Shown here in pieces: positions 48,301 to 64,000 of a stretch of 64,000 bases of DNA; within the stretch, counting starts at the first letter, position 1, and the number at the start of each line of letters is the position of its first letter. This stretch comes from Taiwanofungus camphoratus. Its lineage: Eukaryota > Basidiomycota > Agaricomycetes > Polyporales > Taiwanofungaceae. The stretch spans positions 558,001-622,000 of the forward strand of contig CP021229.1 of the NCBI GenBank assembly GCA_003999685.1. The letters are read 5' to 3'. A program made the translations under genes and the position numbers. The notes beneath the pieces were generated by a model. It searched no databases and was not told the DNA's origin. It saw nothing but the letters and a program-made list of their open reading frames with translations.

Positions 48301-51287
48301 TTGACGTCGGTTATGGTCTTGTGGTCTCTGATATCTGGCGACGCAACTTCCTTGTGCTACTGGGTTTCTTCGTTGTATTCCAAATCACCCAGGTCTTACT
48401 CGTCGAATACTTCCCGGTCAGTCTTCTGAATATGTTTTCAAAATAAAGTCTGACATAATTTATAGCAATACAACGGTAGTTCAGGTGCCACGGTTTTCGC
48501 CAAGGAGAATGCAGATTCTAAAGCGCGCAATGCGGCTCTTCGCGAACGGAAGGCACGGCGGGACCAGGGTTCGAAAGTCACTGTGGAGGTGGAAGATTCA
48601 AATCTGAAGTCCGAGAAAAGGTATGGTAGTTTGAAACAGTGTTTCACACATAGTATTGACGTTAAGCAATGTAGTGGTGAGGTCGCGAAGTTCCAGAGCA
48701 AGACATTCACATGGGAACATATCAACTATCATGTTCCCGTTGCTGGCGGGTCTCGCCGACTCCTTCACGATGTTTTCGGTTATGTCAAACCTGGAACATT
48801 GACAGCTTTAATGGGATCATCTGGAGCGGGTACGTACTCGACTGCATGTTTGTAACATTACTAACTTATCCCTTGTGCTAAAGGCAAGACAACTTGCTTG
48901 GATGTACTCGCCCAACGCAAAAACATTGGAGTTGTTTCGGGTGAACTCCTTCTTGACGGTCGCCCTCTGGGCAGTGACTTTGCACGAAAGACCGCTTACG
49001 GTATGTTTAGGGTATACGCACCATGGCATTCCAGACCGCTGACAGGTGCTTCAGCTGAACAGATGGATGTACACGAAGGCACTGCAACTATCAGAGAAGC
49101 TATGAGATTCTCTGCGTATCTCAGACAGCCTTTCGAGATTCCGAAAGCGGAAAAGGATGCGTATGTCGAGGAGATGATTGAAGTGCTGGAGCTGCAAAGC
49201 CTTGCCGATGCCATGGTGTCTAGTCTCGGTGTCGAAGCCCGGAAGCGACTCACTATTGGTGTAGAGCTCGCCAGCAAGCCTTCCTTGCTTTTCCTGGACG
49301 AGCCGACGTCCGGTCTGGATGGACAAAGCGCTTGGAATCTCGTCCGCTTCCTGCGGAAGTTGGCGGATCAGGGACAGGCTATCCTGTGCACTATCCACCA
49401 GCCATCGTCTATGCTCATCCAAACGTTTGACAAGCTACTCCTACTCGAGCGAGGTGGAGAAACCGTATATTTTGGTGACATTGGAGAGGATTCCAGAATT
49501 CTTCGGGATTATTTCGCGCGCAATGGTGCTGTTTGCCCTTCCAACGTAAACCCAGCGGAGGTAAGTATTTGAATACCAGCTACCGGACGTTACTAAGCCA
49601 TGACATTGTAGTTCATGTTGGATGCTATTGGAGCCGGTTTGTCGCCTCGCATTGGTGATCGGGACTGGAAAGACATATGGTTGGATTCTCCCGATTACGA
49701 GGAGGTCAGGACCGAAATAGATCGCATTAAGCGCGACTCGACAGCACATCCTGTATCGGAAGATGAGAAACCCAGAACTTGTGAGTGAAACGATAAAGTG
49801 CATCGTATGGATGCTCAATGGGCTCGTGTAGATGCGACTCCTTTCTTTTATCAGCTGCAAGAGGTGGTGAAGCGCAACAACCATATGCTATGGCGGTCAC
49901 CGGATTACGTCTTCAGTCGCCTCTTCGTACATGGTTTCTTTTCTTTGTTCATCTCTTTACCGTTCCTGCGACTCGGGAACAGCGCGCGCGATCTTCAGTA
50001 CCGAGTGTTTGGAATGTGAGCGATTTGGCATTCCCTGTCTTTTTTTATCTAGCTTAATAATTGCAACCAGTTACTGGGTGTCGATTTTGCCCGCGATAGT
50101 GATGGGTCAATTGGAGCCCTTGTGGATCGTGAATAGAAGTGAGTGTCTCATCTTGCTGTTGAGTGATAAGTGTTCATGAATCTGTTCTCATCAACAGGGA
50201 TCTTCATACGAGGTTTGTACAATTATCTTTCTCACTAATACCAATCTGACAGCTAGTGATACAGAATCATCGAGTCGTATATATTCGCCGTATGTCTTCG
50301 CGATTGGACAGCTACTTGGAGAGATTCCATATTCAACCCTGTGTGCTATCTTATACTGGGTTCTGATGGTTGGTGATTTTTCTCTCTTCAACTTACGACT
50401 CTTTCAAATGTTGTGTCAGGTCTATCCAATGGGCTTTGGTCAGGGCTCAGCAGGAGTTGGTGGTACTTTCTTCCAGTTGCTGGTCATCTTTTTCATGGAG
50501 TTGTTCGGTGTGAGTCTGGGTCAGTTGATTGGCGCGCTCTCCCCCAGCATGCAGGTAAGAAAACGTGTCCGTTTCCTATCCAAAAGTTAATGTCTCGTTT
50601 TCTGGACTAGATTGCGCCTCTCTTCAACCCATTTATAGGTTTAATCTTGTCCACTTTCTGTGGTGTTACGATTCCCTATTCTACCATGGAAGGTTTCTGG
50701 AGATCGTGGTTGTACCAGTTGGACCCTTACACTCGCACCCTGAGTGCCATGCTGTCAACGGAATTACAGTATGTTCATACTTTACCTACTTTCCGATTGA
50801 GGCCTGACGTTTGGCTTGCAGTGGTCTTGAGATCCAATGTCGTAGTGATGAATTTACTGTCTTCAGTCCTCCATCCGGGCAGACTTGTCAGAACTGGGCG
50901 GGCGCATTCGTGTCTGCTTTCGGAGGTTATCTCGACAATCCTAACGACACATCAGCTTGCCGTTACTGCCAGTATAAAGTGAGCACTTCTTCTGCCGCAA
51001 TCACGTTAGCTCTGATGACATTGGTATCCACCTTGGATAGGTTGGAGACGAATTCTTTTTGCCACTGAACATTCAGTATGACCACCGTTGGCGAGATGCT
51101 TGGATATTGTTTTGTTACTTTGGTATGCGGTGCTTCCAAGTCAAGCTGTCGACATTGCTGATATGGTCTATAGTCTTCAATGTTATTGCCACTATCAGTG
51201 AGTAGTCCTTTGACGTGTGCGTCGTGACGGCCTGCTGATTCTGTTACTGTAGTCGCGTCTCGTTTCTTGCGCTACGCCAAGCGATAA
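45367..51287 (+). CDS. PDR-type (ABCG) multidrug ABC transporter
   Basis: This encodes a full-size pleiotropic drug resistance transporter with the (NBD-TMD)x2 layout, an ATP-driven exporter in the plasma membrane. It starts [15 protein letters not shown] at 45367 and ends RFLRYAKR at 51287, with many short introns. NBD1 has [12 protein letters not shown] (Walker A with Cys for Lys, usual in fungal PDRs), the signature [10 protein letters not shown] and the Walker-B-region motif NSTRGLDAS. It is followed by TMD1 (from [14 protein letters not shown], then [20 protein letters not shown]). NBD2 has a normal Walker [16 protein letters not shown], the degenerate signature [15 protein letters not shown], Walker [17 protein letters not shown] and the H-loop [11 protein letters not shown]2 runs from about 49.9 to 51.3 kb. 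No break was found, though not every splice was checked. The expected size is about 1,400-1,500 residues. The substrate is unknown; azoles or other hydrophobic compounds are typical for the family. Confidence 0.92.
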
Positions 51288-51829
51288 AGCAATCGTCGTA
51301 CAACCTTTATCTTATCTTTTTCGCATGCACGTTTCTATTAGATCGTGACAACTATCGGTAGCAACATTTCAAGCACGAACGACATCGTCAAGAACGACTA
51401 TATATCATATGACATGTTTGTCAAACGAATACATGCACGCTTTAGAAGACTGATGAATTATAGGTTTTTGCATACCTTATGAAGCATTTTATTCAAAGTC
51501 GTAGAAATAGACATGATCCTTTCGATTAGAAGTCATTGTATATATACTGGCATCTCTAATAGACTCAATTCTGCTCCGTCCTCACTTGATCACCATGCCG
51601 TCGATGAATTTTCTGTAAGCGACAACCGCAATGCTTGCTCACGTCAAGGCGATCACCGTCTGACTCGAACGTATGCAGTGGCCCCAGCCCTCTTGAAAAC
51701 TACGTACAGAACGCCAATAGAACCAGCGCTACGACGTATACAATTCGCCCTAAATTCTAGTCGATCAGCATGTGCTAGCGTCTTCTAAGCTCCTTGTAGT
51801 CCTCTAGTCTCTCACCAGGCATCGTAGAC

Positions 51830-53055
51830 ATGGAGCCATCCCCAGACGCTCTGGTAGCCACTGAGAGCAGCGATTCCATGAGTGTGCGAGCACTCAAGGA
51901 CATCAGTTTCGGCAGTGTATGTTTGTCCATCACTGTGACATGTATAAGATGGTTACTGATTTGGCCAAAAGATCGCTGGAATGACTTCGAAAGTCTTCGA
52001 GCATCCCTTCGACCTCACCAAAGTCCGCCTTCAGTCGCAGGTATTGGACAAGACCGCCCGATTTAGTGGGCCTCTGGACTGCTTAGCGCAAACATGGAGG
52101 AAGGAGGGGATCCGAGGTCTCTACAGGGTGCGTCTCGCTCTCGCGTTGGTGATTGTTCGCATGCACGGACATTTACTCCTTACGGCTCTCACAGGGTCTC
52201 CCTGCTCCTATTGTAGGAGCTATGGCGGAGAATGCATCGTTATTCTGGTCATACACTGAGCTGCAGAACGTGATTCGATGGATAAATGCACTGCCTTCGT
52301 CGCAAGAGCTCTCATTAGGACAGCTTGCCCTCGCAGGAGCAGGAGCAGGTACCATCACGAGCTTTTTCCTGTGAGCCCGGTCTCCGGATTGACTCCACCT
52401 TTTAACTCACAGCCAGGGCAGGACACCTATTGAACTCGTAAAATGCAAGATGCAAGTGCAGATGCTCATGCCTCGCACTGTCTCTGCAGCGGAAGCAGAG
52501 GCCGTGCGCTCTGTTTCTCCCTCATTAAAAGCAGCGACAGCCACTCTGCCGCATCCTCCACCATCTTCTGCCTTCCAAAAGCTCCCCGGACCCGTCGCCG
52601 TGCTCACGTCCATCGTCCGCACTACCGGGATCCGCGGCCTCTGGCTCGGCCAGACCGCCACACTCATCCGCGAGACCGGCGGCGGCGCAGCGTGGTTCGC
52701 GTCCAAAGAGGCCGTCGCGACGCTGCTGCTCGCACGGCGCAACGCGCCGTCGAAGGACAAGAGGGAGTTGCGGGCGTGGGAGTCGGCGGTCTCGGGCGCG
52801 TGTGCGGGCGTGGCGTACAACGTCGCGCTGTTCCCCGCGGATACGGTGAAGAGCGTCATGCAGACAGAGGCTGAGTTAAGGCCCCGCGCACAGGGGCTGC
52901 CGGGCCCGACGTTCTTTGGCGTCCTGCGGGAAATGTATGTGGCGCAGGGCGTGAAGGGGCTGTACGCGGGCTGTGGGATCACGGTAGCGAGAGCTATCCC
53001 GAGTAGCGCGCTCATTTTCTTGATCTACGATGGTCTTTGCAGGAGGTTTAGCTAA
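51830..53055 (+). CDS. Mitochondrial carrier, ornithine transporter-like (ORT1/ARG11 group)
   Basis: This encodes an inner-membrane solute carrier of the SLC25 family. Four exons are 51830-51916, 51972-52127, 52195-52370 and 52413-53055. They total 354 codons, or 353 residues. All three carrier signatures are present: PFDLTKVRLQSQ in repeat 1, PIELVKCKMQVQ in repeat 2 and PADTVKSVMQTE in repeat 3. Each is followed by a Gly-rich second helix motif (GIRGLYRGLPAP, GIRGLWLGQTATLIRETGGG, GVKGLYAGCGITVARAIPSS). Repeat 2 carries RETGGGAAWF, which is the pattern of the ornithine/basic-amino-acid carriers needed for arginine synthesis in fungi. A ~45-residue Ala/Pro-rich insertion follows signature 2. 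The family is certain. The ornithine substrate is an inference from these motifs. Confidence 0.85.
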
Positions 53056-53322
53056 TGCGGTGACGACATGCATTGATCCGCCACAGAATTCCTAGAGCTT
53101 ATATCCAGCACGCTATCTCGATAGTCGGCATCGCAGACGACAGACTAATCAATCCCTCAACAATTCATGACACAGTGCAAATGCAATTATTACTGTAATA
53201 TAGGAATGTGTGTCTCCTCGAACGTGCGAGAACAATAGATTGCATCGTCTTGCACTAAACCCCAATATTTAGCGATTGAAACAGAAGTAGACGAGGTAAA
53301 CTGCCATAAATGTGTCGTTGCG
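53056..53322. other. Short intergenic region between convergent genes
   Basis: This is the 3' flanks of the carrier and the ribosome recycling factor genes. Nothing else is seen. Confidence 0.5.
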
Positions 53323-54313
53323 TTACTTTGCCCCTGTGGTTTTCTTGATATCCGCCAAGACCTTGTCTATCTCACTGAGGTACTTGTCGGTCAGAGACTG
53401 AAACTACACCAAATTGTTGGATGTCTTGTCAGTAGCATCAGACAGTTCGCACATAGCCGAACGGACGGACCTCTTCAATCTCAGGTGAATGTTTTTGATA
53501 TTTGCCCTTCTTCAGACTCGCCTGGTGCTGTCTGCGTATCTGCACACGCGCATCTTCCGCCTGTCGTTGAGCGGTGGTATACATTGCATGGCGCGCGTCT
53601 ACTGTTGGCCTGCCAAACAAATAATTTAGGCGCAAGTCCGAACGAGAAGGGGAGTGACCACCTACTTCGGCATGGGAATTTTGATTGTCCGAGTATCCAG
53701 CTTCTGCGGGATGACACCGGGCAGTTTTGCATCAAATATTGACGACTCGACATGTTTCAACGTCTACTAGACCAGAGATGAGTCCCGAGGGTCTTCTACA
53801 AAAGAACGGAAATGACAGGATGGAGGCAGGCACACTCACATGTTCTTCGAACACTGTCACGATCAACGTTGTGCCCTCGCGCACTCCGACGGTGGCGATG
53901 TCGTCCAGCCTCACGCCTTTCCCATCCGCACCCTTATTGTCGGGCAACATAACACGTACAGGCGACAGCACGGCGGGCGTAACGCGTCCGCTGGCACGCA
54001 TCTCCATGCCAGCAACGTCTTTCCGATACTTCTCCAGGATGGCCTTCATCTTGCCCTCCGCCTTCGTGTATTCCTCGCCCGCAGCTATCCGCTGGGAGCC
54101 CGGAACCAGGTCCTGTGTCGACAAGATGGGGCTATGTTTGCCCTCCTTCGACTTATCCTTGGCCTTCTTCGAGGCATACGTCCGAGTGTAAGCGAGGGGA
54201 AGACATGTTATCTTAGATAGCCGTAGACATGGTCGCGTTGGAGTACGCAGACGCGCAACTATGGAGGACGATCGTGCGACGAAGTAACTGGAAGACATAT
54301 AAGTTGGTGACAT
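53323..54313 (-). CDS. RRF1: Mitochondrial ribosome recycling factor
   Basis: This encodes the factor that splits mitochondrial ribosomes after translation termination. It is read on the minus strand from MSPTYMSSSYFVARSSSIVA, with an Arg-rich presequence up to LAYTRTYASKKAK, a good matrix-targeting signal. The RRF core follows: EGKMKAILEKYRKDVAGMEM, RASGRVTPAVLSPVRVMLPD, VRLDDIATVGVREGTTLIVT and VFEEHTLKHVESSIFDAKLP. Then come RTIKIPMPKPTVDARHAMY, AQRQAEDARVQIRRQHQASL and KKGKYQKHSPEIEE. The last exon encodes FQSLTDKYLSEIDKVLADIK to the stop at 53323-53325. Three introns are inferred, at the joins EEH/TLK, PMPK/PTVD and IEE/FQS. A second Met at codon 6 is an alternative start. Domain I/II layout and length fit the family, and the assignment is secure. 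Confidence 0.9.
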
Positions 54314-55000
54314 TGCGACTAGGATTTCCGTTTTGGCAAACTTCGTCGCGGATCACGTGCAGACGCGTCGTGACGCGCACATCTGACGGGCTCTTGCTCG
54401 ACGACTGGTAAGCAATCCCCATACATTGTGTATAATATCCACACAATGATCCTTTTGCCCCCAGATTTGGGATTTTGTATGTGTGATTTTACTGCCGGGT
54501 CGGATATCTATCCGTGGGTAGATAGGGTCGTGTTCTCAAGGAATTCTTTTGCATACTTAATTCACGCAATAATCCAGCATACGACAATGTACATAGACTC
54601 TCACAGGTATAATGCTATACTATATCCATATACTTATTGGGAGTCCTTACCTGAGAGCACTCCGCGATAAGCTTGATAAGTTTACTAGCAGCCTTGATGA
54701 TTTTGAAATACACGTGTAAGGGGCGTGCCGTATAACACCTTAGGCATGCCCGTTCGCGAACTCGGATCGTCAGAGGTCCGACTGCTAGCCTGCGAGCAAT
54801 GGTTATCTCGAGATATCCAGAGATTCGTTGCACCGTGTAAAATTTGAATCGTACCAATCCGAACAGTCGCTGCCTTTAGTTGTTAATGTTCGTTTTGTGA
54901 CAGTCAAAATGTGCTTTGGTCAATTCACGGAGCAGTCTTCCGGGGCCTACAACCGCCACTGGAGGCAAATACTAGTATACACATACAAGAGGACTACCTC
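54314..55000. other. Intergenic region
   Basis: I see no gene. The region lies between the recycling-factor promoter and the poly(A) end of the LINE fragment. Confidence 0.5.
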
Positions 55001-56105
55001 TTTTTTTTTTTAAATTCCTCTGGTTTATACTCCATACGACGTAGGTACATGTAGAGTAATAATGATAATAAGTGGGCATCCGTGCCCTCATGAGTGGCAC
55101 ACCTACAGTTTTCAGTGGCCTTGTTATGTGGTGTGGGCCTGTAATCCAGTAAGGCCTGCAAAAGGAAGGGTACAGTCATCCATAGGAAGCCGTACCTGAC
55201 CCCCGCCCGACCTACTTTTCACGCTCTTTGTGTTTATCCGGCCCGGTAATCCTGTTCCGTCAGTAATTCACCCTAAGAACTGAGTGTAGCCCTACATGTT
55301 TCAGGCCTCAGTTATCATTCGGGTAGACAGGGGGGTCATCGCAGATACTGGGTTCCGCTATCCCCTCATCTACCCAATTATGGTATAGTTCAAACGCCTT
55401 TGCTTCGGCATCATACCATTCACAGAAATCACGGAATTTTCCACCCAGGGCGGTGGTCATTCCAGGATCTAAATGTCGGTCTGCATGGAACTGCTGCCAT
55501 GCCGCTTGTCTTCCGACAGTGTGGCACATAAGACGTGCACGAGTGAAAGTTCTCGTGCACGCAGCTTCAGCTTCAAGCAGAGATTTGGCCAGAATCTCAG
55601 CCCAATCAAATGTGGAGACCATCGGGTTAAGCCAAAGGAACTCCATAATGTCATCTGGGGTCCAACCCCTCTGTTCAGGGGGCCCCATCAGAAGCGGATC
55701 ACGAGGACCCTGTTGGCGCTTCGTCCTGACCCAGAATGGGCAGTCGAAGAGCACATGTTCCCTGGTTTCCTCCGCTCCGCACAAGCAGAGGTGAGGGCCT
55801 GGAATGTTGAACCTAGAGCAGTATTCACCACCTGGAAAATGGTTGGTGAGCACACGACACACGCGTGCCACCTCCTTGTTGGACTTGCCAGCTGCCTTCA
55901 AGACCCACGTACCCTTGGCCGTGGTTCTGTGCAGCGGTAGGGCGTCCTCGGTTACTTTGTATAACCGGCGACCGCGATAACTGGGATTGTCGACTAATGT
56001 CCCCCAGCACTTTTTGACCCTTGCCTTGACGCGATGATGAGTCCTGTAGCCTCCTGGGCCTCGAATCGCGATTTTAGGAGCTTTCTGATCCCCCAACCGA
56101 CCACT
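55001..56105 (-). mobile_element. 5'-truncated non-LTR retrotransposon (LINE) fragment
   Basis: On the minus strand, coding sequence for the C-terminal part of a LINE ORF2 is followed by about 290 bp of 3' UTR and an A11 run (T11 on the plus strand, 55001-55011), as expected for a LINE 3' end. The 5' boundary is near 56100, where the frame meets a stop and the composition changes to that of the gypsy LTR region. RT and endonuclease domains are missing, so this copy cannot move by itself. Confidence 0.75.
55308..56096 (-). pseudogene. LINE ORF2 C-terminal fragment (Cys/His zinc motif)
   Basis: This is an open frame of about 262 codons without a proper ATG (it begins at TTG next to an upstream stop at 56106-56108). 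It represents the region after the RT domain of a Tad/I-like LINE. The diagnostic piece is CLCGAEETREHVLFDCPFWV, the C-x-C...H...C motif found near the C-terminus of such ORF2 proteins. It is preceded by SNKEVARVCRVLTNHFPGGE. The tail (DFCEWYDAEAKAFELYHNWV) has no known domain. Internally the frame is undamaged, so the insertion may not be very old. Confidence 0.75.
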
Positions 56106-56809
56106 CTAAGACTCTCCTACTCCCTACGACAGGAGGGATAGGTTCCTATAATATTCCTAACGCCCCCTCTCTTTCCTAAACCCTCCTAACACCCTACGAA
56201 GTCTTGCGAAGCCACACGAGGTGCTACGAGATTTCGAATGCTAGACGCGAAGTCCCTAACTCCTGCTAAGTCCACTATCGGACACTGCCGGCCCTCCCAT
56301 ACTGTTCCATTGGATCTAGATCCTATCTACTACGTCACTCATCCCGGGCTTAGCTAAGAAGTCTTAGCTAAGTCTCTCCTAGCTCTTGTGATTGCAGTTA
56401 CCTCCGATAGGCTCCGAAACGGTCCGAAGTTCCGGAAGCTGGACTTAGGAAGCCTTGTGCACCCCCATGGGTCTCGATCCTATGCCATAAGGTCATCCTA
56501 GGGCGTACCCACATGACCCTCCACCCAGTTAGGACACCTCCTGCCCTGATTAGGCCAAGTCCCGCTGCTAAGAACTTCGTGCGCTTTTAGCCCGCTAAGA
56601 TAGGTGATCACGGCGCATGGCTGCTCTCGGATAGTCATCCCGCCCTCGTGAATGAAGTTGGTCACCTTTCTACCGTTCGTAGTTCCCCTGTTTCAGTTCC
56701 TAATTAGTTCCTATCCTCCTCGTGTTCACTTCGGAGTCCATGCGTTTTAGTACACATTTCGGACTCGTAAGGATCACTTCGCGCAAGATTAGTTCACCTC
56801 ACGCTCCCC

Positions 56810-56815
56810 TATTTA
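56810..56815 (+). promoter_or_regulatory. TATA-like element of the LTR
   Basis: TATTTA lies about 25-30 bases before the point where ATG triplets vanish from the plus strand. It is a candidate TATA box for the retrotransposon transcript, weak by itself. Confidence 0.3.
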
Positions 56816-56981
56816 GTCAGAGGTAGTTTACTATGTAAGAGGGAGACCCCTCAGTGCACGCTTCTCTCTTTGGAATACCAGTTCCCCTGTAGCTCCGATC
56901 TCAGGAAAGCGCCGCGAGTACAACCTTAGGAACGGTCCTAAGGTCCCTAAGTCTCCACCCCAGCTTCGTTTCAGTACCTTT

Positions 56982-57027
56982 GAACTACGTCTACGCTCGC
57001 GATATAGCTACGAACTACGTCTACGCT
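56982..57027 (+). repeat. Direct repeat in the retroelement leader
   Basis: GAACTACGTCTACGCT occurs at 56982-56997 and again at 57012-57027, a 30-bp period. A shorter partial copy (GAACTACGCACTAC) follows. The repeat is non-coding. Confidence 0.75.
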
Positions 57028-58213
57028 TCTCGAACTACGCACTACCATCTACGAAAGTCGCCGTGACTTCGCACCCTTCAGCACCTTTCATAGCACCTAT
57101 CTGGTGGGCCTCCGCCTTAGTTATACCCTTAGGCTCACGTTGCGTTATCCCTACGTCCTACGAATAGCCCTACGACCCTCCCATAGCCTTAGTTACAGGC
57201 TATAGTACATCTCTCTACGCCCTCGAACTCTCCGACCTCTCCTACAGGTCTCCTACGCTAGCCAAACCTCGCCCACTTCACTCTAACAAACTCCAAAAAC
57301 CTTACGCCCTTTAGCTAACTCTAACCAGAAGGGCTTCGCAGCATCTACGAAGTCAGCTCGCGCGATTTAGCTAAAACTTCGAAGGGCTTCGCAAAACCTC
57401 GAAGAACTTCGCATACTTCGGAGGGCCTCGCAAGGCCTTAGGGATAGTATAGCACTTAGGAACAAGATCCTGTTGTGCAGGACCCTTGACCCCTTACTCC
57501 CCTACTTACAAAAACAAGACATACAGGTTTCCCGGTATCATACAGGTTGTAGCTCCTACCCTCACACCCTCACAGTTATCACACTACCCCCAGCCACGTT
57601 GCGGAGCACTCCCTAGGTACCAGGGTCCCCTAGGTCGTATCAATTCTGGAGCCCACCGCGAGGGGGAGCAGTCAAGATTTCATTGCCTTCAGATCATCCT
57701 ACGTCTAACCAGTCCTCTCCGAGAAACAGCGATCAGTTACTATCTGAGTTCTTTCAGGTCGGCTATCGTTACTATACTCAAGCAGGCCTTCCACGAAGCA
57801 CCTCTTCGCGAACACCTACGACTATCCCCTCCGATATCATTTCTACACTCGGATCTTCCGAATCGACCCCCGACTTCGAGGCTCTTTTCGAAGGGTCTCT
57901 AGACACGCTTACCACGTCCGAAGACTCACCAATTGAGGACTTCGAACCTCAGTCCACGTCCCCTGAGCTTCCTAACACCTCCGAAGGAAGCGGTCCTTCT
58001 TCAGCGTCTGACCCTATCTTAGTCCATTTACCGGAATCCCCTCAGTTATCCTCTACGCTCCCATCAACTTCGCATTCCCCTCCGATTCCTTCTATTACAC
58101 TTTCCGACACTTCTACGACCCCATCCTCTTCAGCTAGCATCAACTCAGCTTCGAACCCATCTTTGACCGCACCCACTTTAGCTAATCCCCTAAATCCTAT
58201 TTCTGTGTCAACC

Positions 58214-60616
58214 ATGAACGTACCTCCACTCATGCCGCCCCGAGGAGATCGTACATCCCCCACCTTCGATCCTGACCAGCCTAGGACCATCCGAAGGTAT
58301 TTCCAGGACTTAGAGTCACTTTTTGTCCGCTGCCAGATAGCGGATGAGGCGACGAAGAAACACTGGACTACTCGCTACCCTCCTATCGATGTTTCGGACC
58401 TATGGGAGTCCCTCCCTGAGTGTTCCGATGTCACGAAGACCTACGAAGACTTCAAGAAGGAGATTAGAAGCCTCTACCCAGGCACAGAGGACGATAGAAT
58501 GTGGTCTATGTCTGACTTGGATCAGTTGATAGGAGAACGTGCTAGAATTGGAATCAACAATGCGGCAGACTTAGGAAGCTTCTATCGTGAGTTTTATGCC
58601 ATCACGAAGTACCTAATTTCGAAAAATAGGTTGTCTACTATCGAGCAAAGCCGTGCTTTCGCGAGGGCCTTCCAGCCTTCGCTATGGGCTCGCGTGTCTA
58701 CTAGGTTACAGCTAAAGTTCCCTGATCACTTACCCGATGATCCCTACACCTTGGACCAGCTACATAGCGCAGCGAAGTTCGTACTCCTTGGTACTTCTAC
58801 GACTCTTACCTCTGCTACGACTGTAACTACTTCGCCCACTGCCGTGCCCGTGGGGGGCTCATCGCTAAAGATAGAGGATCTACAGACGTTCGCGGAGATC
58901 CTCACGAAGTCCGTAACCAGTGCGCTAGCTCCTGTTCTTGCGAACCAGCGACCTCCTCGATTGGACAGCTCGCGCGGCGAGCACACTCATGTAGAAGGCC
59001 AGTACTGTCACTATTGCGGGGACTTGGACTGCTGCACTAGGTGTTGCAAGCACATTGAGCAAGACATCAAGGATGGCAAGTGCAAGCGCAACCCAGATGG
59101 AAAGATAGTGCTGCCAAATGGAAATTTCGTACCCAGAACGATCCCAGGACGTACGATTCGCGATAGGCTTTACGAATATCATCGACGAAATGGCACGAAT
59201 TCCTCCCCACAGCTCCTATTCGAAATCGACAACCGCCTAAATGTGCCTGCATTCTCACTATCTGCTGAGGATCGTATAGCCGCTTTAGAACACGAGATTT
59301 ACCAACTTCGGAGACGTCGCGAAGTCTTCGATGGTGTGGAAGTACCCCAGCGCAGAAGGCAGGGTGCTCCTAACACGCAGTCTGATCCTAGAAACCCGCC
59401 CGTAGCCAATGCACCTCCGATAGGACGCGCTCAGCATCCAGTAGTGGATCCCCCTGCTAACCAAGATGCCCCAGCGGCGGAGGTGCAGAACCAGACCCCT
59501 CCTACCATTCTAAAGCGATCCAATTATCCTTCTAATTCAGCGCCTTCGCCTCCGAAGCCTGCGAATGTGTCCGATCCACCCCCGAACTCATCGGAGCATG
59601 CCGCGTCTACATCTAACGTACCAGCCCAACCAGCATCACAGGCAGCCATTCCACCGCCCACTCCACCAGTACATCCTTTCGCTAACGCTCGAGATGCTAC
59701 TTACGCACCTCCGAATCTTCGAAATTTCGCAGCAGCTCCGAAGCCTACAGCAGACAAGGGCAAGGACGTGGCCTATAAGACGATCACACCGGTTCATCAG
59801 GAGAAGCTTACAGAGGAAATATTCGCGCGATCTATGAGGACACCAGTGGTTACACTAATGCCTGAGGAGTTACTATCTATATCCCCGGATGTTCGTGCGC
59901 GATATCGCGAAGCCATCACCCCTAAACGTGTGCCTATGGATCCTAAGGCTACTCATATGGCTCAAATTACGGAACTCTCAGACGATCTCGCTTCTAAAAC
60001 GACGCTAGCAACCTCCGAACTATCGTGCCATGGTGAACCTCTTGTCCCTGGTTCGACCATCATTCCAGACCCCTACGAAACGTACTTACGACACGTACCC
60101 GGAAAGGAAGAACCCTCCGAAATCATAGTAGCCCGCGACTCGAATTCTATCCGTTCTATCGAAGCCCTAATTGACAACAAAGAGCGAATCGAATGCATCG
60201 TGGACCCTGGGTCACAAGTGGTTGCGATGTCAGAGCAAGTCTGTCATGCCTTAGGGCTAATTTACGACCCTTCCGTGCAGCTAAATATGCAGTCTGCTAA
60301 TGGCAGTATTGACCGTTCTTTAGGACTGGTTCGAAATGTCTCGTTCCAAGTAGGCGACATCGTGTTGTACCTACAGATACACGTCATACGCAATCCCTCC
60401 TACGATATCCTTCTAGGCCGACCCTTCGATGTGGTAACTGAGAGTGTGGTTAAGAACTTCGGAAACGAGGAGCAGACCATCACGATCGTATGCCCGAACA
60501 CGAGCGAAGTCACGACCATCCCTACGATGCCTCGAGGACGTCAAAAGTTCTTACCAGCCCATCATCATAGTTGCCCCCACGCGAACTCTTCGAATCATTT
60601 GCGATCGGGTTTTTAG
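58214..60616 (+). CDS. Ty3/gypsy Gag-protease polyprotein
   Basis: This encodes the structural Gag and aspartic protease of an LTR retrotransposon, in one frame from the first available ATG (58214) to TAG at 60614-60616, about 800 residues. Gag has RRYFQDLESLFVRCQIADEA, TKTYEDFKKEIRSLYPGTED and RAFARAFQPSLWARVSTRLQ. A Cys cluster YCHYCGDLDCCTRCCKHIEQ is followed by GKCKRNPDGKIVLPNGNFVP. The cluster sits where gypsy Gags carry a CCHC zinc knuckle, but Cys replaces His. The protease core is IECIVDPGSQVVAMSEQVCH, with Asp-Pro-Gly at the active-site position, and SYDILLGRPFDV as the second hairpin. The frame is open upstream to 57617 without an ATG. Pol follows in the -1 frame with a 46-nt overlap (60571-60616). 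No stop or frameshift damage is visible. Confidence 0.88.
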   Translation: MNVPPLMPPRGDRTSPTFDPDQPRTIRRYFQDLESLFVRCQIADEATKKHWTTRYPPIDVSDLWESLPECSDVTKTYEDFKKEIRSLYPGTEDDRMWSMSDLDQLIGERARIGINNAADLGSFYREFYAITKYLISKNRLSTIEQSRAFARAFQPSLWARVSTRLQLKFPDHLPDDPYTLDQLHSAAKFVLLGTSTTLTSATTVTTSPTAVPVGGSSLKIEDLQTFAEILTKSVTSALAPVLANQRPPRLDSSRGEHTHVEGQYCHYCGDLDCCTRCCKHIEQDIKDGKCKRNPDGKIVLPNGNFVPRTIPGRTIRDRLYEYHRRNGTNSSPQLLFEIDNRLNVPAFSLSAEDRIAALEHEIYQLRRRREVFDGVEVPQRRRQGAPNTQSDPRNPPVANAPPIGRAQHPVVDPPANQDAPAAEVQNQTPPTILKRSNYPSNSAPSPPKPANVSDPPPNSSEHAASTSNVPAQPASQAAIPPPTPPVHPFANARDATYAPPNLRNFAAAPKPTADKGKDVAYKTITPVHQEKLTEEIFARSMRTPVVTLMPEELLSISPDVRARYREAITPKRVPMDPKATHMAQITELSDDLASKTTLATSELSCHGEPLVPGSTIIPDPYETYLRHVPGKEEPSEIIVARDSNSIRSIEALIDNKERIECIVDPGSQVVAMSEQVCHALGLIYDPSVQLNMQSANGSIDRSLGLVRNVSFQVGDIVLYLQIHVIRNPSYDILLGRPFDVVTESVVKNFGNEEQTITIVCPNTSEVTTIPTMPRGRQKFLPAHHHSCPHANSSNHLRSGF

Positions 60617-63600
60617 ATTTCGAGGATTTGAGAAATCAAGGAGAGGTCGCCCTGGTCGTTGAGTATGAATCCGATACCCCTAAAATCGTGTCTTTCGCTG
60701 CTGTAAATGCAGCAGATAACAATTCTGTTCCTGCGCTCTATCTATCAGTCTCTAACTCTGTGTCTAGCTATCTGCAGTCTCTCTATTTTAGCGAAACTTC
60801 GAAAGTCTCGGAAGGTCCTGCTGATAATACTAGGTGGCTATCTGGCTTTCTAGCAGCAGCAACACCGCCCGAGGCTCCCTCCCTTTCACACGATGATCCG
60901 AATTCTCTCCCTATGCTTTCGCTTTCCACCTCTAGGAACATTTCCTCTATCCCCATTCCAGGTCCCAGGAACGCTACGAAGGTCACGAAGTTAGCCCGAA
61001 GACCTGCCCTTGCTCCTAATCCGAGGGTATCCCTTCCTAAGTTGTCAGATTCTTCCCCTATTCCTACTTTTGCAGCATCGAAAAAGAAGTACAAGCCCGT
61101 AGCACTGAAGACTCGCCCTATTCTGGGAGCTTTGGACGAACGATTCCGAATCATTCGCGAAATTAAAGGCGACCCTTTAGCAACGATGCCTACCCTATCA
61201 CCGACTCCACCACCTTTCGAACCTACTTTGCGATATACGCGAGAACGGCACGATCTCACGGACAAGCTACACAGCGGAGACTTCCTACAACCAGCAGAGA
61301 GGGACCTCCTACATCACTTTATGACCCTGCATGCTGATGCGTTCGCTTGGAATGATTCCGAAAGAGGATGCTTCAAGCCGGAGTACTTCCCTCCCATCGA
61401 CTTTCCGGTAGTACCGCACACGCCATGGGTACAAAAGAACATTCCTATCCCACCCGGAATCTACAACGAAGTGTGCGCAATAATCAAAAAGAAGATCGCA
61501 GCGGGGGTCTACGAACCTTCGAATTCTTCCTATCGTTCACGATGGTTTTGTGTGGTGAAGAAAGACGGAAAGTCCCTACGTCTCGTACATAGTCTGGAAC
61601 CCCTAAACGCTGTCACGATTCAACACTCAGGTGTTCCCCCGACTCCCGAACACCTCGCAGAACAGTTCGGAGGACGACCTTGTGGTGCTATGTTGGATCT
61701 ATATGTAGGCTACGATGAACGCTTGATAGCGGAGACTTCGCGCGATCTTACGACATTTCAAACACCTTTCGGAGCTATGAGATTGGTCACTCTACCTATG
61801 GGATGGACCAACTCGGTCCCTATCTTCCACGATGATGTTACGCACATCCTACAGCCCGAAATTCCTCACCTAACGGTTCCCTATATCGACGATGTTCCGG
61901 TCAAAGGCCCTGAAAGTTCGTACGATCTCGTACCTATTTCGGAGAACCCAGGCATTCGAAAGTTTGTTTGGGAACATTTTACGAACCTCAATAGGATAGT
62001 CACACGCATGCGCTACGCAGGAGGTACCTTTTCTGGAGTTAAAAGCATTCTAATTGCCCGCGAAATCACCGTTGTGGGGCATCGGTGTACTCCAGAAGGT
62101 CGCCTACCGGACGAGTCTCGTGTTGCAGCCATACGCAACTGGGGACCTTGTGCGACCCTATCTGACGTTCGAGCCTTTTTAGGAACCATTGGAGTGGTCC
62201 GTATCTTCATCCGAAACTTCGCGCATCGTGCAGATGCCTTAGTACGCCTAACGCGAAAGGCGGTACCCTTCGAATTTGGTCCAGCGCAAATCGCAGCGCA
62301 GGAGGACCTTAAGGATGCTTTGCTGTCCTCTCCAGCTCTCCGATCCATTAACTATTCGTCAGGTGCGCCCGTCATCTTAGCGGTTGACACCTCCTATATT
62401 GCAGTTGGCTATCACCTTTGCCAATGCGATGAGGACAACCCTAAAGTCCGATTCTACAATCGTTTCGGATCCATCACCCTAAATGATCGCGAGCGGAGGT
62501 TCTCGCAACCGAAGTTAGAGATCTACGGATTGTTTCGAGCACTTCGCGTACTACGAATCTACCTAATCGGAGTTAGGAACCTTATAGTGGAAGTGGACGC
62601 ACGCTATATCAAAGGGATGTTGCAAAATCCGGACATCGCACCCAGCGCGAGTATAAATCGCTGGATCGTATCGATTCTAACATTCCATTTCACCCTAGTA
62701 CATGTACCAGGTACGATGCATGGACCAGATGGACTATCAAGACGAACCCCCCAGCCAGGAGATCAAGAAGAGAGCAGCGAAGAAGACTTCGAAGACTGGA
62801 TAGACAAAATGCACTCGTTTCTACATCACATCCAAGCCCCCCCTTCCCATCCTATACCATCGATTTCTACCCTATTCCCTTACGAATTCGCCTCTAACAT
62901 TCCTATCACAACACCCACACCTCCAATAGCTCCAACCTTCGCCTCCGAGTTGGCTGAGGACAGCCAAGGTCTCAATAGGGAGGAGGAGAGCTACGATACC
63001 GTCCCAAGATCCGAAATGGCCAAGGAAGCTGACGCAAGACTTGACTTAGTAGCAAAATTCCTACGAAGCCTCGCGAGACCTGCCAACCTATTGGATGCAG
63101 AATACGAAGGTTTCGTAAAATACTGTCTTCTATTCTTCCTCGATGAGGACATACTATGGCGCAAAGATCCACAAGGAGCTCACAAACTAGTTGTTAAGCA
63201 GGCAGATCGTCTACGAATCCTCCGAGAATGTCACGATGCAGTCGCGCATGGAGGAATACACGCTACGAAGGTGCTGATTTCGGAGCGGTTTTGGTGGCCC
63301 TACCATCATATCAACATTGCCTGGTATGTTCGAAGCTGCCACCTATGCCAGATTCGCCAAGTGCGGCAGATCCTAATTCCTCCTACGGTCGCTACGCCCG
63401 CTCCGATCTTCGCAAAGGTTCACATAGATACCATGCATATGCCCCCTTCTAACGGATTTAGGTACTTGGTGCAAGGCCGGTGTTCTCTAACCCAGTACCC
63501 CGAATTTCGGATGCTTCGCAAGGAAACGGCTAAAGCTTTGGCAGAATGGCTCTTCGAAGACTTTGTTTGTAGGTGGGGCGCGCTATCGGAGATAGTCACG

Positions 63601-64000
63601 GACAACGGTGCTCCCTTCGTAAAAGCTACGAACTACATAGCGAAGAAGTACCAGCTACGACATATCCGAATTAGCAGATACAATTCGCGTGCCAACGGAC
63701 TGGTGGAGAGGCCTCACTTCGATGTTAGGCAGGCTCTATTCAAGGCCGTGGATGGCGAAGAGTCTAAATGGTCTCAGGCAACGTACTCGGTCTTCTGGTC
63801 CGAAAGGATCACGACTCGAAAGCGCATGGGATGTTCGCCCTATTTCGCGGTCACTGGCACCCACCCTGTTATCCCTTTGGACGTCGTAGAGGCCACCTAT
63901 ATCCTTCCTCCTCCGTCCTCCATGCTATCCACGACCGATCTTATCGCACGACGAGCTATCGCATTGCAAAAGCGGGTGACTCAGGTAGCGGAACTACATT
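60571..64000 (+). CDS. Ty3/gypsy Pol: reverse transcriptase, RNase H, integrase (incomplete at window end)
   Basis: This frame, -1 relative to Gag-protease, is open from 60571 to the window edge, over 1,140 codons with no stop. It has no start of its own and begins LPPRELFESFAIGFLDFEDL, so expression by frameshifting is inferred. RT runs from about 61.37 kb with FKPEYFPPIDFPVVPHTPWV, SRWFCVVKKDGKSLRLVHSL, MLDLYVGYDERLI, LPMGWTNSVPIFHDDVTHIL and the catalytic YIDDVPVKG. RNase H has AVDTSYIAVGYH, LEIYGLF, VEVDARYIKGML and PDGLSRR. Integrase has an HHCC finger (HDAVAHGGIH ... CHLCQIRQ) and the DDE residues in VHIDTMHMP, IVTDNGAPF and ANGLVERPH, with 34 residues between the last two. The order RT-RNaseH-IN defines Ty3/gypsy. 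The 3' end of pol and the 3' LTR lie beyond 64000. Confidence 0.93.
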   Translation, partial: MPPRELFESFAIGFLDFEDLRNQGEVALVVEYESDTPKIVSFAAVNAADNNSVPALYLSVSNSVSSYLQSLYFSETSKVSEGPADNTRWLSGFLAAATPPEAPSLSHDDPNSLPMLSLSTSRNISSIPIPGPRNATKVTKLARRPALAPNPRVSLPKLSDSSPIPTFAASKKKYKPVALKTRPILGALDERFRIIREIKGDPLATMPTLSPTPPPFEPTLRYTRERHDLTDKLHSGDFLQPAERDLLHHFMTLHADAFAWNDSERGCFKPEYFPPIDFPVVPHTPWVQKNIPIPPGIYNEVCAIIKKKIAAGVYEPSNSSYRSRWFCVVKKDGKSLRLVHSLEPLNAVTIQHSGVPPTPEHLAEQFGGRPCGAMLDLYVGYDERLIAETSRDLTTFQTPFGAMRLVTLPMGWTNSVPIFHDDVTHILQPEIPHLTVPYIDDVPVKGPESSYDLVPISENPGIRKFVWEHFTNLNRIVTRMRYAGGTFSGVKSILIAREITVVGHRCTPEGRLPDESRVAAIRNWGPCATLSDVRAFLGTIGVVRIFIRNFAHRADALVRLTRKAVPFEFGPAQIAAQEDLKDALLSSPALRSINYSSGAPVILAVDTSYIAVGYHLCQCDEDNPKVRFYNRFGSITLNDRERRFSQPKLEIYGLFRALRVLRIYLIGVRNLIVEVDARYIKGMLQNPDIAPSASINRWIVSILTFHFTLVHVPGTMHGPDGLSRRTPQPGDQEESSEEDFEDWIDKMHSFLHHIQAPPSHPIPSISTLFPYEFASNIPITTPTPPIAPTFASELAEDSQGLNREEESYDTVPRSEMAKEADARLDLVAKFLRSLARPANLLDAEYEGFVKYCLLFFLDEDILWRKDPQGAHKLVVKQADRLRILRECHDAVAHGGIHATKVLISERFWWPYHHINIAWYVRSCHLCQIRQVRQILIPPTVATPAPIFAKVHIDTMHMPPSNGFRYLVQGRCSLTQYPEFRMLRKETAKALAEWLFEDFVCRWGALSEIVTDNGAPFVKATNYIAKKYQLRHIRISRYNSRANGLVERPHFDVRQALFKAVDGEESKWSQATYSVFWSERITTRKRMGCSPYFAVTGTHPVIPLDVVEATYILPPPSSMLSTTDLIARRAIALQKRVTQVAELH
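60607..60616 (+). promoter_or_regulatory. Candidate -1 ribosomal frameshift site
   Basis: In the Gag-protease frame the end reads TCG GGT TTT TAG. G_GGT_TTT fits the X_XXY_YYZ slippery pattern, and a one-base slip gives GGG TTT TTA GAT TTC, entering pol. The stop codon directly follows the heptamer. A weak stem, GATTTC (60616-60621) with GAAATC (60632-60637), lies just downstream. Confidence 0.6.

Follow-up and report, generated by a model that had tools for sequence, protein, structure and literature searches.

Why does the coding strand of this locus hold no ATG for almost 1.4 kb directly before the start of a Gag gene? The window (the whole stretch of DNA analysed, 64 kb) comes from Taiwanofungus camphoratus, a polypore of the Polyporales, whose 33.2-Mb assembly comprises 15 contigs. 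The initial annotation had claimed that the plus strand lacks ATG at 56836..58213, and a direct count indeed gave zero between the flanking ATGs at 56833 and 58214. At 1381, the resulting gap exceeds every other ATG-free stretch on both strands of the window, where the next longest reach 429 (plus) and 730 (minus).

The element that carries this desert is an LTR retrotransposon of the Ty3/Gypsy type, here called family A. Its 5' LTR (56035..57642, plus strand, 1608 bp, TG...CA) was delimited by Blast edges against other copies and against an LTR on the opposite strand. A TATTTA had been placed at 56810; it is there (56810..56815, plus strand), is the only TATTTA in the LTR and occurs in all 30 family A copies aligned, which makes it a putative TATA element. 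The LTR scan found further TATA-like words at 56147 and 57002. The last ATG before the desert (56833..56835, plus strand) lies 23 nt past the start of TATTTA, in 30/30 copies and in 4/4 long-LTR variants, and probably precedes or coincides with the transcript start. The desert begins 26 nt past the start of TATTTA; its first 807 nt are the downstream half of the LTR, and the other 571 nt form the internal leader. Beside the LTR lies the primer binding site (57647..57664, plus strand), whose 18 nt can base-pair with the 3' terminus, CCA included, of a tRNA that has an intron and was called as tRNA-Lys(CTT). The primer-site pattern gave five exact matches and one with a mismatch in the genome itself, and the reversed control pattern gave one. 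All four primer-tRNA loci that were fetched were recognised as tRNA by Rfam, while ARAGORN called Lys(CTT) in one, an unresolved anticodon in two and nothing in one. The introns of these tRNA genes (L085-L088) differ in length and sequence between loci.

The Gag-protease ORF (58214..60616, plus strand) starts at its first AUG and contains an aspartyl protease domain. The Pol ORF (60571..64000, plus strand, in the -1 frame) runs past the window end to about 64425. RNase H at residues 570-703 is followed by integrase H2C2 at 876-931, the domain order of the Ty3/Gypsy type. The reverse transcriptase domain had no Pfam match in Pol, and no chromodomain was reported. The Gag Pfam family PF03732 was found at five places in this genome, none of them a family A place. 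Gag-protease and Pol overlap by 46 nt at 60571-60616, where a run of five T reaches into the Gag stop. In the deposited protein P0001, a single model reads from Gag on into the Pol frame, for which a frameshift and an intron are both possible. No direct or inverted repeats of at least 60 nt were found within 50000-64000, because the 3' LTR lies outside the window. The Rfam search of the 64-kb window at gathering thresholds gave no match. The 5' LTR at 56035-56899 is 99.65% identical over 865 bp to the remaining 3' LTR (L032:2503-3367); therefore, the insertion of the element looks recent. Upstream of the element are two ORFs, at 52450-53055 (plus strand) and 53732-54313 (minus strand), which we take to resemble a mitochondrial carrier protein and a ribosome recycling factor, respectively.

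The rate of ATG in the window predicts 24.6 in 1378 nt, and the base composition of the interval itself predicts 14.0. Dinucleotide-preserving shuffles of the interval showed an expectation of 3.6 ATG, and 1.5% of the shuffles had none. This test is conservative, because the local shortage of AT and TG is taken as given; its result alone is modest, more so because the interval was chosen for being ATG-free. For the part of the element at 56035-64000, the longest ATG gap was 1381, compared with a maximum of 1178 among 1000 dinucleotide-preserving shuffles. The desert might be explained by composition only, with ATG rare by chance on a C-rich, G-poor and TG-short strand. The shuffle figures favour this explanation, as does the TG dinucleotide, which occurs 23 times in the interval against about 59 expected from base composition; GTG is also scarce in family B, a second family described below (2–4 against 9–10 expected). 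However, the triplet count called for by the initial annotation gave 0 for ATG, compared with 8 CTG, 5 GTG and 10 TTG (20, 10 and 15 expected), so that these near relatives of ATG stand at about half of expectation. CAT, the reverse complement, occurs 17 times in the interval. The same desert in family B, whose LTR does not align to that of family A, also argues against composition, since CTG reaches 0.65–0.87 of expectation there and TTG comes near it (four copies checked). The onset is sharp, lies inside the LTR and stands beside the TATA-like boxes: there are 8 ATG at 56035-56832, none at 56836-57642, none at 57643-58213 and 39 in Gag, and the count of 8 in U3 is near expectation. We regard composition alone as a very improbable explanation.

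The conservation of the desert was followed in other copies. The family A search scored 40 of 536 candidates, of which 33 were nearly full-length matches; 30 were fetched and aligned and three were left out. No ATG was present in the interval in 22/30 copies, whereas the other eight carry one or two each (11 ATGs in total); the 30 include four tandem copies that do not differ from one another in the interval. Seven long-LTR variants were seen, of which four were fetched (L041-L044) and three left out. The distance from TATTTA to Gag is 1543–1561 nt in all four, and no variant adds more than one ATG to the conserved one at offset 23; the desert is thus nearly kept in the four variants, at a length of about 1.5 kb. 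They have about 140–160 nt more between TATTTA and Gag, and the middle part of their LTR is only about 86–87% like the LTR of the window. The four tandem copies (G000:C10:635264-668047, L018-L021) lie 10468–10469 bp apart, and the tandem sits reversed inside the 3' LTR of the window element, outside the window (L032:2503-3367). LTR positions 56895-56899 are found on both sides of it, which suggests a 5-bp target duplication; an assembly effect is also possible.

A search of the genome with the Pol protein scored 81 of 405 candidates, and several divergent matches led to family B, which has the same primer site and an LTR that cannot be aligned to that of family A. For family B, 35 of the 36 loci given were mapped onto one real copy, and L060 was given and left unmapped. 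L035, L037, L039, L045, L046, L063 and L064, also fetched for divergent Pol matches, were kept out of the mapping because they had no match to the Gag start, contained a family A LTR insertion or, in the case of L046, held a family A-like copy that begins at 58155. A TATAAA box was present in 9/10 family B copies checked. Up to three ATGs lie 5–14 nt after the start of the box, and the desert extends from about 17 nt after that same point. The stretch of about 1 kb from the TATA box to Gag is free of ATG in 4/30 spanning copies, where about 11–12 are expected from base composition. The remaining 26 carry 1–8 ATG each, and the 30 copies together hold 75 ATG against 588 CAT. These extra ATGs recur at few positions, and many of them may have arisen by CpG decay of ACG. 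Older copies (L036, L038, L040, L072 and L077-L081) look hit by CpG-type transitions, by which ACG has become ATG or ACA, among other places at the candidate start described below. The divergent Pol matches carry several TGA, and the transitions and TGA together suggest methylation decay or RIP-like mutation.

The initial annotation had attributed the desert to selection on a long transcribed leader. The desert is conserved in family A, nearly kept in the long-LTR variants and recurs in family B, and a selected transcribed leader that begins close to 56.84 kb would fit its onset in both families. We consider the same desert, with the same placement relative to a TATA-like box in an LTR that does not align, the most convincing reason to infer that a scanned leader is under selection. 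Two parts of the attribution need revision. The 3' half of the 1608-bp LTR makes up most of the interval, more than half of it, and the last 0.54 kb or so looks coding, so that it is not simply a leader. The clearing is also less distinctive than supposed, since two other families, sampled at three control loci, also have ATG-free stretches, though shorter ones, before an ORF. These run for 401 nt (L082), 252 nt (L083) and 610 nt (L084) up to the first ATG of a long ORF, and in 2/3 controls no other gap in the locus is longer. L082 and L083 were picked by a Gag domain and L084 by an integrase match, and the last is a long ORF, not necessarily Gag. In the controls, a stop closes the frame within a few codons before the first ATG. 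As these families are cleared although no open frame lies upstream, a long Gag is not a prerequisite for clearing. Clearing before an ORF may be common in this genome, with the length and the open frame as the special part here.

The Gag frame in family A is open at 57617-58213, and none of the 199 codons that thus precede the Gag AUG is itself AUG. The stretch at 57677..58213 (plus strand, 179 codons, about 0.54 kb) would encode a Ser/Thr/Pro-rich, acidic sequence without Met, Cys, Trp or Lys. Shuffles of 57677-58213 were open in the Gag frame in 0.4% and in any frame in 1.4%; the corresponding value for the family B extension was 1.3%. The 3-base periodicity of this stretch was reached by 0/3000 shuffles, compared with P = 0.031 for the first 537 nt of Gag and P = 0.0007 for the family B extension. 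The putative R-U5 (56836..57642, plus strand, about 0.8 kb, ATG-free) has a non-coding character, and neither it nor U3 showed periodicity. The distribution of indels is similar in meaning. Over the 30 family A copies, there are none in the extension and 34 in R-U5, all single-base. In family B, the extension holds 20 in-frame indels and one frame-shifting indel, and R-U5 holds 9 in-frame and 108 frame-shifting ones; these counts are per copy and not independent events, and 13 of the 20 in-frame indels are 6-nt insertions at nearly one place. Only one of the 33 family B copies that cover the extension has an in-frame stop in it.

The test for an excess of synonymous variants was less uniform. 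Among variants common to at least four copies, the family B extension had 33 synonymous ones against 24.3 expected (P = 0.0115), and P was 0.09 and 0.13 at the two lower cut-offs. The excess in the family A extension was not significant at any of three cut-offs (P = 0.132, 0.066 and 0.45). Gag as a positive control gave P ≤ 0.0025 in family A and 0.0075, 0.115 and 0.009 in family B. The first 40 or so codons of the family A extension showed no clear codon bias. A comparison of the family A extension with that of family B was equalled in score by 15/150 shuffles, and with that of Postia by 94/150.

The extension was also sought in Gag homologs. It was present upstream of the homologous Met in 22 of 53, all named Postia or Rhodonia placenta, so that, T. 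camphoratus apart, a single species showed it; the motif is missing from the remaining 31, most of which are annotated from the Gag Met and cannot decide the matter. Over the extension, one family B copy and one Postia model share 43.6% identity (119 bits). All 12 Postia extensions with both ends placed lack an internal Met, whereas the model P0028, whose start could not be placed, has one. The extension measures 181 residues in 9/12 of the Postia models, 179 in family A (counted from 57677) and 136 in the family B copy. The conserved part starts with a K-x-S motif, in which x is T in 9/14 and M in 5/14 readable models, three of the five M being the first residue of the model. Judging from these sequences, a conserved Ser/Thr/Pro-rich acidic extension is encoded in family B and Postia placenta and begins near AAG-ACG-TCT. 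The sequences thus supply a desert in two families and an extension that has coding character in family B and Postia and in which Met is scarce.

These results bear on whether the desert is a plain cleared leader, in which the Gag AUG alone is used and the open frame of family A is low-complexity chance or the leftover of an ancestral longer Gag. The control loci resemble such a leader, being ATG-free for 252–610 nt and having a stop close before the first ATG, a few codons away at most. The family A extension itself is without detectable homology to that of family B and without a significant synonymous excess, and the Gag AUG stands in good context and is kept in 29/30 family A copies. The periodicity of the family A extension and the absence of indels in it speak against a plain leader, as do the protein-level conservation in family B and Postia and the single stop among the family B copies. 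We consider a plain leader unlikely, and the stretch from 57677 to 58213 is most likely an AUG-less N-terminal extension of Gag.

The extension would need a start codon. In family A, the candidate is the AUU in AAG-ATT-TCA at 57674..57682 (plus strand), with ATT at 57677 and A at -3, in the Gag frame and 179 codons before the AUG. This motif is invariant in 30/30 family A copies and in 4/4 long-LTR variants, and the AUU would probably be the start of a long Gag. Other in-frame near-cognate codons are present, including ACG at 57701 and 57818, which leaves the start in family A uncertain. At the like position, the 33 readable family B copies have ACG (24), ATG (4) or ACA (5). ACG is probably ancestral in family B, as ATG and ACA are each one CpG transition away from it. 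Twelve family B copies match Postia both at the primer site and further downstream; in all 12 the two matches lie in different frames, and the downstream one begins at F/L-P-K in most copies. The protein-level constraint therefore seems to begin near the candidate codon; the frame difference counts as one inherited difference, not as 12 events, and presumes that the Postia models have no intron there. The Gag AUG has the context ACCATGA in family A and ACAATGA in family B, both judged good. Starts of this kind are known in fungi: the basidiomycete Cryptococcus is reported to use ACG for LeuRS and AUU for ArgRS (PMC7049704), and a conserved, mostly AUU start codon is proposed for cpc-1 of Agaricomycetes (PMC5487733).

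The extension might instead be translated from an AUG before 56836, which splicing or a transcript start further upstream would provide. The copy in the window has ATGTAAG, a possible splice donor, at 56833-56839, the ATG at 56833 is kept in every family A copy aligned, and the Postia gene models reach for assorted upstream Mets. The donor at 56835 was rejected, since donor-like GTAAG is present in only 4/30 copies and GTAC in 24/30. The Postia models begin at differing, unrelated Mets, and their upstream residues vary by model; this pattern is expected when a gene predictor reaches for a Met in a frame with no native AUG. The family B ATGs that follow the TATA box so closely are probably upstream of the transcript start. 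An upstream AUG thus seems rather improbable, less plausible than a plain leader though more so than composition alone.

We speculate that leaky scanning past a near-cognate start yields both a long and a short Gag, and we hold this to be somewhat more probable than the contrary. The predicted 5' end of the genomic RNA would consist of R-U5, the tRNA-Lys primer site, the AUG-less Gag extension and then the Gag AUG. Ribosomes would scan from a cap near 56.84 kb, where we infer the transcript start. A minority would initiate at the near-cognate codon just after the primer site and produce the long Gag, the codon being ACG in family B and the Postia relatives and probably AUU at 57677 in family A. 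The remaining ribosomes would leak past to the Gag AUG and produce the usual Gag. An AUG in the leader, or one out of frame in the extension, would capture the leaking ribosomes, which would account for the clearing of the stretch. The use of the near-cognate codon, the ratio of long to short Gag and the role of the extension are, like the transcript start, read into the sequence in this proposal. The 8/30 family A and 26/30 family B copies that do carry ATGs count against it.

Long retroelement leaders can also work by an IRES or by shunting. Cap-independent entry of this kind near the primer site would leave the long leader unscanned, and shunting is described for plant pararetroviruses (PMC5902531). 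RNA folding of the leader and of R-U5 showed nothing unusual (z = -0.06 and -0.55, respectively), and such entry would make the clearing of ATG over the whole R-U5 needless. We give cap-independent entry as little weight as composition alone and return to leaky scanning.

Several known systems resemble this arrangement. In murine leukaemia virus and other gammaretroviruses, glyco-Gag is an N-extended Gag translated from a non-AUG codon of the leader (CUG, also GUG), in frame upstream of the Gag AUG, and gammaretroviruses generally lack AUG in the glyco-Gag extension, according to PMC5778647. Likewise, the Gag frame here stays open on the 5' side of its AUG and has no further AUG there in family A, in family B copies and in the 12 placed Postia extensions. 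The fungal element is not a member of the gammaretroviral system: families A and B are fungal and of the Ty3/Gypsy type, their candidate codon is ACG or AUU, the extension is acidic and Ser/Thr/Pro-rich, and the AUG-free stretch extends back through R-U5. In rice tungro bacilliform virus (RTBV), an AUU start is used by about 10% of ribosomes while the rest leak on, and leaky scanning over about 900 nt is aided by missing internal AUGs, as PMC5902531 describes. The AUG-free distance from the near-cognate codon to the AUG is 537 nt in family A and about 0.4 kb in the least decayed family B copies. The AUG-free ORFs of RTBV differ in that they encode separate proteins before ORF III and the leader is passed by shunting (PMC5902531), whereas the frame here is fused to Gag. 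PEG10, a mammalian gene derived from a retrotransposon, has an upstream in-frame CUG start besides its AUG start and no in-frame AUG upstream, but its extension comprises only 34 residues (PMC2800197). Fungal cpc-1 has a near-cognate (ACG, AUU or CUG) extension of about 120–180 residues in a conserved frame without stops; it encodes a cellular transcription factor and has AUG uORFs in its leader (PMC5487733). Among the matches listed in the literature, there was no fungal or Ty3 precedent for a non-AUG Gag start or for such leaders, which is weak evidence of absence.

The full proposal is that a polypore lineage of Ty3/Gypsy type makes two Gags through leaky scanning, with ACG or AUU as the near-cognate codon just behind the primer site and 1.0–1.5 kb of leader and extension free of AUG, as a separately arisen fungal counterpart of glyco-Gag, and that this design was kept despite a changed LTR and a changed start codon. 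For this wider proposal, we judge the arguments on the two sides to be evenly balanced. If it is true, non-AUG Gag isoforms occur not only in gammaretroviruses and domesticated genes but also in fungal Ty3/Gypsy-type elements, and a natural AUG-free leader of about 1.4 kb becomes a test object for long-distance scanning. Annotated Gags such as AcW1_008990, whose record starts from the AUG, may then miss some 140–180 N-terminal residues, and the unrelated upstream Mets of the Postia gene models would result from stretching the models to take in the extension frame. Relatives of a Trametes homolog were sought in viral contigs and none was confirmed. In P0053, a homolog from an environmental record, residues 1-90 include the primer-site residues WSPPRGG in frame with Gag and about 80 residues upstream of it; therefore, an open frame before the AUG may exist in further relatives.
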